A stretch of 64,000 nt of DNA from Alkalihalobacillus sp. AL-G (lineage in GTDB: Bacteria > Bacillota > Bacilli > Bacillales > Fictibacillaceae). Positions within the stretch are counted from its first letter, which is position 1; every line of letters starts with the position of its first letter. The position numbers and the translations under genes were made by a program. Location of the stretch: positions 1,922,001 through 1,986,000 of the forward strand of contig NZ_CP094656.1 in assembly GCF_030643805.1 (NCBI RefSeq), in the 5' to 3' direction. Below the pieces are notes generated by a model. It was not told where the DNA came from. It did no database searches and worked only from the letters and a program-made list of their open reading frames with translations. Below, piece by piece: positions 19,028-40,527 of this stretch.

Positions 19028-19197
19028 AAGTTCAAATAGTCATCAAGGGCTCATGTACCTTCGTCTACAAGTATATCTAGGATGAAAGCTTCCTTAGTAC
19101 AACTCGTAGCTTTTATGCAAGTACGGCTGGTCGCTCCGGTCCTCAAAACTGTCCTGCCTTGAACTTCTTGTTTCTAATTTGCCGAATTTTGAACTCT
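19028..19197. repeat. Dispersed inverted-terminus repeat, copy before tsf
   Basis: About 170 bases from AGTTCAAATAGTCATC to GAATTTTGAACTC. The interior matches copies near 40.2 and 40.4 kb in several blocks: CAAGGGCTCATGTAC, CGTCTACAAG, GTACAACTCGTAG, ATGCAAGTAC, CGGTCCTCAAA and GAACTTCTTGTTTCT. The ends are imperfect inverted repeats. It has no coding content. With the rpsB terminator it fills the 293-base rpsB-tsf gap. Confidence 0.8.
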
Positions 19198-22088: not shown

Positions 22089-22856
22089 ATGCTGAATAAG
22101 CTTGTCAACTTAACCAAAATGAACAAAGAAATAACTGACGATAATAAGCTCGATCGCAGCCGGATTCCTTCACATATCGCAATTATTATGGATGGTAACG
22201 GCAGATGGGCTAAAAAGCGTGGACTGCCAAGGATTGCGGGTCACCGTGAGGGGATGAAAGTGGTCCGAAGAATAGTCAAACGTGCTAACCAGCTAGGTGT
22301 AAAAGCACTGACCCTTTATGCATTCTCAACCGAAAACTGGAAAAGGCCGAAACCTGAAGTGGAATTTATCATGAAATTGCCAGAACAATTCTTGCTTACT
22401 TATTTACCTGAATTGATCGAAGAAAATGTTCAAGTACGTACAATCGGACAAAAAGAAGGAATCCCTTCTTATACACAAAAAGCAGTAAACGAGGCAATTG
22501 AAAAAACAAAACATAATGATGGTCTTATATTGAATTTTGCGTTGAATTATGGCAGTCGTTTTGAAATCACCGAGGCAGTTCGCCAGTTATCAAAGGATTT
22601 GGATGCTGGTACAATAAGTGCAGAAGATGTCGATGAAAATTTGATTGGATCCTATATGATGACAAAAGGAATCGGGGATCCCGATCTGTTAATCCGAACA
22701 AGTGGCGAAATCCGTCTCAGCAATTTTATGCTCTGGCAGCTTGCCTATACTGAATTGTGGTTTACCGACGTGTATTGGCCTGATTTTTCTGAGGTAGACC
22801 TTGAGCAGGCGATACTCGATTATCAGAATAGGGGCAGAAGATTCGGAGGGGTATGA
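22089..22856 (+). CDS. uppS: Undecaprenyl diphosphate synthase
   Basis: cis-Prenyltransferase that makes the C55 lipid carrier for cell-wall synthesis. The catalytic Asp lies in IAIIMDGNGRWAKKRG, with the GHREG and LLIRTSGEIRLSNF substrate-binding motifs. ATGs occur at 22086 and 22089; the second is better spaced from GGGGG (22077-22081), giving 255 aa. The stop overlaps an ATG at 22853 that is not used for cdsA. Confidence 0.96.
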   Translation: MLNKLVNLTKMNKEITDDNKLDRSRIPSHIAIIMDGNGRWAKKRGLPRIAGHREGMKVVRRIVKRANQLGVKALTLYAFSTENWKRPKPEVEFIMKLPEQFLLTYLPELIEENVQVRTIGQKEGIPSYTQKAVNEAIEKTKHNDGLILNFALNYGSRFEITEAVRQLSKDLDAGTISAEDVDENLIGSYMMTKGIGDPDLLIRTSGEIRLSNFMLWQLAYTELWFTDVYWPDFSEVDLEQAILDYQNRGRRFGGV

Positions 22857-37735: not shown

Positions 37736-37790
37736 GGTTGTATTCAAAAAGTACGGAAGCTTTTCAAGTCCCCCTTTTTGAACGCGCACT
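37736..37790. repeat. Short form of the dispersed repeat before truB
   Basis: TTGTATTCAAAAAGTAC (37738 on) and CCCCTTTTTGAACGCGCAC (about 37771-37789) are the two inverted ends of the dispersed element, with about 20 bases between them and no conserved interior. Confidence 0.55.
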
Positions 37791-40155: not shown

Positions 40156-40300
40156 TATAAGAGGTTGTTCAAAAAGTATCCAAGGGCTCATGTACATGCG
40201 TCTACAAGAGGTAAGCTTCTTCGGTACAACTCGTAGTCTTCGTGCAAGTACCGCTCGTTGATAAACGGCGAATTTCTGTGCTACTCGGCTTTTCCGGTCC
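40156..40300. repeat. Dispersed repeat, first tandem copy before pnp
   Basis: The left end TATAAGAGGTTGTTCAAAAA begins at 40156; the interior (AGGGCTCATGTACATGCG, TCTACAAG, GGTACAACTCGTAG, GTGCAAGTACCG) matches the copy before tsf. The right half degenerates and runs straight into the next copy without a clear right terminus. Confidence 0.75.
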
Positions 40301-40462
40301 AAAGTATGAGCATATGCACCTGCGTCTACAAGCTTATCTTCTCAGAAGGCTTTCTCGGTGCAACTCGCAGTATTTATGCAAGTTTCGCTCGTCGCTTCGG
40401 TCCTCAAAGCTGTTGTGCCTGGAACTTCTTGTTTCTGATTCGTCTACTTTTTGAAATCACAC
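40301..40462. repeat. Dispersed repeat, second tandem copy before pnp
   Basis: Starts AAAGTATGAGCATATGCACC and keeps the right half: GTCGCTTCGGTCCTCAAAGC, GCCTGGAACTTCTTGTTTCT and the right end CTACTTTTTGAAATCACAC. The right half is nearly the same as in the tsf copy. The two copies and the fragment that follows occupy most of the 466-base rpsO-pnp gap. Confidence 0.8.
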
Positions 40463-40508
40463 TATAAGAGCTTGTTCAAAAAGTCCGGTCAAATTGCCTT
40501 TTTGATTA
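40463..40508. repeat. Short form of the dispersed repeat beside the pnp promoter
   Basis: TATAAGAGCTTGTTCAAAAA starts at 40463, abutting the right end of the previous copy, and GCCTTTTTGATTAC closes it at about 40508. There is no conserved interior. The closing T-run supplies the proposed pnp -35. Confidence 0.6.
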
Positions 40509-40527
40509 CAAAATTTTGGGTTATAAT
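40499..40527 (+). promoter_or_regulatory. Candidate sigma-A promoter of pnp
   Basis: TTTTTG (40499-40504, a weak -35), a 17-base spacer and a perfect TATAAT (40522-40527). About 40 bases of leader follow before the pnp start. Confidence 0.5.

Follow-up and report, generated by a model that had tools for sequence, protein, structure and literature searches.

The 302-bp stretch that lies in the rpsO-pnp gap of Alkalihalobacillus sp. AL-G is very probably a non-autonomous mobile element (MITE), with hairpin modules in its interior; a transposase would act on it in trans. Taken as a family, it is a mobile repeat that is real, widespread and non-autonomous, a variant of the modular MITEs in which hairpin modules are common to different repeats. 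No description of the element was recognised in the open-licence literature that we searched. The order Bacillales thus gains a small mobile element of wide occurrence, one that explains variable stretches beside housekeeping genes which might otherwise pass for regulatory RNA. We analysed a window of 64,000 nucleotides, corresponding to bases 1,922,001-1,986,000 of the single 4,155,898-bp contig in which further copies were sought; unless stated otherwise, the coordinates of the gap are those of the window.

Mechanical repeat finding located a 22-nt left-end repeat at 40156-40177 and 40463-40484, and a 19-nt interior repeat at 40190-40208 and 40314-40332. An earlier note on this DNA had given two left ends (40156 and 40463) and one right end, all of which are present as written, and had listed words shared by the interiors, which are real and belong to a module that we call M1 (at 40184-40258 and within 40301-40392). 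However, that note had seen in the gap a tandem pair of one unit followed by a third, end-only copy. We conclude instead that the gap has one element, because a single left end and a single right end bound the segment 40161-40462; the appearance of two tandem units arises from the doubling of M1 inside it. The element, which is of end type T2 and is oriented on the plus strand with all of its parts, starts with GAGGTTGTTCAAAAAG and finishes with CTTTTTGAAATCACAC. It consists of the left end GAGGTTGTTCAAAAAGTATCC (40161-40181), the first copy of M1 (40184-40258), a core segment TGATAAACGGCGAATTTC...CCGGTCC (40259-40300) that is common to other T2 copies, a second and longer copy of M1 (40301-40392), and the right-hand portion of the core (40393-40462), which includes the right end CTACTTTTTGAAATCACAC (40444-40462). 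Both M1 copies were delimited by repeat finding, with boundaries set by eye; the second replaces a short hairpin, CACGTAT...ATACG, that occupies the same site in other copies. The pentanucleotide TATAA, which has no strand and is present on both sides of the element (40156-40160 and 40463-40467), is read from its sequence as a target duplication, in a register that was tested on other copies as described below. Immediately to the right, at 40468-40510 (+), is a 43-bp hairpin made of ends only. The third, end-only copy of the earlier note therefore exists, but as a separate, older minimal copy and not as part of a stack, and the 302-bp element would have inserted beside it. Minimal copies of this kind (36-62 bp) were found elsewhere in the same genome too.

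Three observations on the surroundings of the element can be added here. To the left of the window element, the flanking sequence (CGTTTAGAAGGTATAA) resembles half of the hairpin of a second dispersed repeat, AGAAAGTATAAAAATACTTTCTATAGTATAAG...AAGGCTTGGC...CAAGTTTTC, which by eye is present in the corresponding gap of Pseudalkalibacillus decolorationis (L079) and partly near, and upstream of, a RAYT-like gene (L077). A further piece of the element, a partial blastn match, is located at window 19053-19190 (+), and an isolated right end at 37773-37787 (+) shortly precedes a truB-like open reading frame.

The closest named relative through pnp is P. decolorationis (91% identity), whose gap, examined by eye, contains a degenerate minimal hairpin and is without the 302-bp element. 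We kept 80 named pnp loci for the comparison of orthologous gaps. Paired ends within 700 nt before pnp were found in 0 of the 80, at a stringency that misses the degenerate P. decolorationis hairpin, and a profile of the core gave no match in these loci at E≤0.01. When the whole window was compared with Rfam, no match reached the gathering score; at E≤1 there were two sub-threshold matches, both of them outside the element, over rpsO.

The earlier claim of a dispersed repeat is borne out by searches of the own genome. A blastn search with the 353-bp region gave at least 61 matches there (best 40 of 119 candidates scored), and the left end occurs at 33 places as compared with 1 for a reversed control; corresponding values are 15 and 1 for the right end, and 49 and 6 for a looser version of it. 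Our search for paired ends, which covered 351,841 own-genome bases and 20 stretches from four other genomes, yielded 64 copies, or 62 after two false pairs (2633024 and 2828535) were dropped from the register, outer-stem, frame and end-type counts. These 62 copies comprise 46 from the own genome, 9 from G001, 1 from G006 and 6 from G040. Fewer than a handful of genome copies had been named beforehand as an argument against a mobile repeat; the portion of the own genome that was covered holds 46. Own-genome copies range from 36 to 465 bp, in agreement with the variable length noted earlier. The ends are conserved and have the form GAGG(N)TGTTCAAAAAG...CTTTTTGAACACRCAC. That these ends are inverted is evident from the outer stem, in which 626 of 682 cells are Watson-Crick among 62 copies that had been found by their ends. 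We distinguish two end types, T1 (AAAAAGTCC...CCTCCTTTTTG) and T2 (AAAAAGTATCC...GTCTACTTTTTG). End typing keyed 61 of the 62 copies, and among the 39 that were classed at both ends there were 24 T1/T1, 15 T2/T2 and 0 mixed copies. The interior had also been called non-coding, and with this we concur: after end-paired copies under 100 bp were dropped, no coding frame was common to 73 copies, and a coding element is ruled out even though some copies are open in one frame.

Evidence for movement was sought in the flanks of the copies. In the own genome, 18 of 38 copies had flanks sharing a word of at least 5 nt, whereas 24% would be expected (p 0.0002 by permutation, row 73447 having been dropped). 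Under a fixed register, which takes 5 bp on the outer side of GAGG and 5 bp on the outer side of the closing AC, 26 of 62 copies matched at 4 or more of the 5 positions, as against 12.3 expected; the own copies by themselves gave a modest signal (15 of 46, 8.8 expected). Because this register had been chosen after the first flanks were seen, we applied it to a further set of 28 copies from 28 other genomes, one being G040. The set represents 28 of 30 loci; L319, which belongs to the own genome, and L296, which lacks a right end, were left out. At least 4 of 5 positions matched in 23 of these 28 copies, where 7.5 would be expected, and 15 were exact at 5 bp. The duplicated sequences vary, examples being TAATA, TTATA and TTAAA.

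We also looked for empty sites in four relatives, using as queries the sequences on either side of 12 own copies. For 8 of the 12 sites an orthologous gap was readable, and at each of the 8 at least one relative was without the long element; no readable gap was obtained at 1135569, 2511782, 2739176 and 1567280. In one example, the own genome has TTTTATAATTATTTAT[element]ATTATTAGGAGGAG where G001 has TTTTATAATCATTAGGAGGAG. At another site, 2947089, G001 is empty and three others have short hairpins resembling minimal copies. Both checks that the earlier note had proposed, for target duplications and for empty sites, thus came out in favour of insertion, and its comparison with a MITE is upheld by a non-coding interior, inverted ends, 5-bp duplications, relatives without the insert, many copies and a patchy spread.

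As to the spread, exact matches to the T1 left end GAGGNTGTTCAAAAAGTCCGG were obtained for 29 of the 397 order genomes drawn, spread over 17 of the 135 genera, and for none with the reversed control; in this draw, both of the other genomes of the own genus, Pseudalkalibacillus, are without it (G003 and G006). Many of the copies elsewhere are 153-157 bp long. A 409-bp copy gave matches in 28 of 60 genomes searched, the own genome included, many of them to only a 41-nt piece of M1. The same copy had no match among plasmids or phages; with a core consensus of 155 nt assembled by hand, two marginal matches to plasmids (E 0.01 and 0.03) and none to phages were obtained.

On the mechanism that we favour, a DDE transposase, possibly of the IS1182 family, would act on the MITE in trans and would make cuts staggered by 5 bp where the sequence is AT-rich, for example at TATAA or TTTAA; own-genome copies would persist mostly in AT-rich stop-to-start stretches, where damage would be small. 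The element thereby points to a possible IS1182-type mobiliser. DDE_Tnp_1 domains (PF01609) were found at 20 loci in five genomes, and one of these loci (L332, in G040) has matching ends. The element there is 1,926 bp long, and its ends GAGGCTGTCTAAAAAGTCC and GGGGTTGTCCAGAAAGTC are two and three mismatches, respectively, from GAGGNTGTTCAAAAAGTC; as a background, a scan of 1,283,862 positions in 80 unrelated loci gave 5 places that differ by no more than three mismatches. The 514-aa transposase of this element scores above the NCBIfam cut-off for IS1182, and the G040 genome has 26 exact T1 ends. Matches to the transposase at E≤0.001 were found in 15 of 24 genomes, mostly picked as carriers of the MITE or its modules. 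In G401, an IS copy has GGGGCTGTCCAAAAAGTC at both ends, and in G276, G004 and G193 (a fragment) one IS end each is like GGGGCTGTCCAAAAAGTC. The IS of G040 and its relatives in G401, G276 and G004 match the left-end pattern of the MITE with one to three mismatches, but they differ from it in encoding a transposase, and the right end of the MITE is less like the IS ends than its left end is. More distant family members (44% or less) had no MITE-like ends. We regard the IS1182-type element as a candidate mobiliser, and as only a candidate, since the best match to its transposase in the own genome is partial and 27% identical, G001 gave no match, and the two complete candidate IS copies (L394 and L395) have no 5-bp duplication at their ends. 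About seven transposase fragments, each from residue 413, are present on contigs C4, C22, C31, C34, C67, C121 and C148 of G317, which suggests internally deleted derivatives of the IS1182-type IS.

The resemblance to REP elements had been raised in the earlier note, and on such a reading the RAYT-like transposase of the own genome would move a REP/REPIN family. We consider this most improbable. The own genome has two Y1_Tnp matches, and a gene for a 192-aa Y1 transposase is separated from one element copy by about 0.5 kb; however, fabZ lies between that gene and the copy, and the immediate flanks of the gene are without a copy. On these grounds the RAYT-like gene, the one gene examined in the own genome, was rejected as mobiliser. 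The element copies also have 5-bp duplications, which are not known as products of Y1 transposases. The gene occupies L077 1285-1863 on the reverse strand (own genome 3827961-3828539), upstream of fabZ, and further upstream of it is a tandem array with the unit TACAAGTCTAACTCGGAAAA.

We next consider the structure of the core and the possibility that the element functions as RNA. A core consensus of about 155 bp, derived from the 14 cores with a length of 120-165 bp that were kept from 30 loci, forms one long imperfect hairpin from end to end, with 39 pairs, 12 of which show double changes; its consensus energy was -25.7, as compared with -3.1 (sd 2.2) in 20 column shuffles. Among 45 copies of up to 330 bp, the mean folding z was -3.26 for the sense strand and -3.49 for the antisense strand (40 shuffles each). 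The antisense strand was more stable in 14 of 14 cores, and the sense strand was the lower in 32 of the 62 end-paired copies. The ratio of G-U to A-C pairs was 15:8 in the outer stem, 10:24 in the core and 56:11 in a second module, M4, where one constant T-G pair accounts for 36 of the 56. Because these ratios conflict and the core folds better as antisense in every case, no consistent RNA strand emerges, and selection on a sense-strand RNA fold was rejected, the strand signs disagreeing among outer stem, M4 and core.

This bears on a reading in which the element would be a regulatory RNA leader, selected upstream of genes that include pnp. Apart from the strong folding, the reading draws on gene context in the own genome, where copies between co-directional genes are sense in 31 cases and antisense in 7 (p 0.00012), and where the start of a downstream sense gene is no more than 40 bp from the end of the copy in 21 of 38 cases; by eye, many are located just before a Shine-Dalgarno site. 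Genes were called here by a simple script, one call of which, at 1532877, is plainly wrong. The sense:antisense ratios in G001 (6:1) and G040 (4:0) have the same direction as in the own genome. In contrast, the 28 copies from other genomes showed no bias, 12 being sense and 11 antisense, a distribution of gene sense that differs from that of the own genome (p 0.02). In the latter, gene sense is also inseparable from replication direction (30 copies sense and co-directional with replication, 8 sense and opposite, 4 antisense and co-directional, 4 antisense and opposite, with the terminus assumed at 2.10 Mb). Regulation is not supported, because a sense bias is missing from the 28 other-genome copies; the stability of the antisense cores, the equal standing of the two strands in own copies, and the related gaps without the element argue in the same direction. 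By these criteria we judge a selected regulatory leader to be unlikely, and retain the mobile element as the explanation.

The interior of the mobile element would, on our reading, consist of smaller structured repeats that entered the core loops by insertion or by recombination. The nested insertion suggested by the earlier note is real to this extent, as hairpin modules inside elements, but not as three stacked copies. The best-defined module, M4, is 61 nt long and consists of a hairpin followed by a stem around a second hairpin with an AGGAC loop. In a model built on 16 copies that were picked by hand, 94.5% of the cells are paired, as compared with 43% or less in slid versions; double changes were seen in 9 of 17 pairs, and the covariation score was reached by 0 of 500 shuffles. 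With 136 candidates scored per genome, M4 matched at 79 places in the own genome and 100 in G001, and in 16 of 40 genomes and 9 of 20 genera altogether. A GGA motif in a loop is CsrA-like, and one M4 loop has GG in 40 of 40 distinct copies (from 72 raw matches). Against a CsrA-like role for the GGA loops, the other loop is often CGA and the remainder of the module is equally conserved.

Placement of the modules is what bears on their origin. Possibly, M4 (and perhaps M1) is itself mobile and enters the loops of folded repeats in either orientation, including, recursively, its own loop; we advance this tentatively, the movement of M4 as a unit being inferred from its placement. In cores from other genomes there were eight M4 matches at seven loci, five sense and three antisense, with core L297 having M4 in both orientations and the match in L308 being weak (E 0.077). 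By eye, M4 is also located inside repeats with CTTTCCGCGGG ends (L356, L357 and L371, and reversed in L354 and L369), stands alone in L353, L358 and L360, and appears within another M4 at 2801562, L385 and L381; minimum-energy folds recovered the last arrangement partly for L381 and not for L385. If this proposal is correct, the long elements are hairpin stacks built by a loop-targeting process, of which we found no description in the literature searched. The interiors might also be what is left of one long ancestor, from which parts were lost and the remainder was shuffled by recombination between copies, an origin that we hold to be possible at somewhat less than even weight. It would fit the single orientation that modules inside the element keep throughout the own genus, with the exception of false pairs and a handful of weak word matches, and the resemblance of the 36-62 bp minimal copies to internal deletions. 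It fits poorly with M4 lying both ways round in cores from other genomes, with its presence in unrelated repeats and alone, and with the 41-nt M1 piece, which in other genera sits in a different host repeat. That repeat (L198 and L201-L208), which has CTTTCCGC and GTTGATTTCCG near its end, contains the M1 core (CCTGCGTCTACAAG...CTTCCTCG). The sharing of hairpin modules by different repeat families provides natural with/without comparisons of module movement. By eye, another hairpin repeat appears to have inserted in the core copy of L296, as read from the left end of that core.

With regards to known repeats, the closest kind, by description, is the pneumococcal BOX. According to PMC3049150, the elements of Streptococcus pneumoniae and S. 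suis are modular, non-coding, 67-637 bp long, and have inverted ends and target duplications; inner modules are common to end types in S. suis, the elements insert into one another and form composites with T-box riboswitches, and they are overrepresented between convergent genes. A modular interior between fixed ends is also a property of the present element. However, its own-genome copies are mostly between co-directional genes, and one of its modules occurs as well in unrelated repeats, either way round and, as it appears, within itself, features that set it apart from BOX as described there. The bcr1-bcr3 repeats of the Bacillus cereus group (PMC6542083, PMC3446304, PMC2267715) are folded, intergenic and often located in UTRs or operon gaps, and bcr1 is MITE-like, tied to a TTTAT motif and 147-167 bp in size (PMC2267715). 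The present element is similar to bcr1 in size and as a MITE-like, intergenic, folded repeat, but lacks the constant TTTAT flank motif, its 5-bp duplications being variable. The core consensus matched no Bacillus plasmid at E≤1, which is a weak and indirect test of homology to bcr1. GTAG- and CGTC-tagged REPs (PMC3733652) are units of 20-40 bp; they are likewise dispersed, palindromic and patchy among species, whereas the elements reported here are flanked by duplications and are up to 465 bp long in the own genome.

There were also two observations on T-box leaders. The serS T-box leader at L031 1322-1643 (own genome about 22172-22493), whose match is 322 nt against a 219-position T-box model, has a copy of the element at about L031 1501-1584. 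At L045 1176-1297 (+), a Bacillaceae-1 RNA (RF01690, 55.2 bits) has both a T-box and an element copy in its vicinity.
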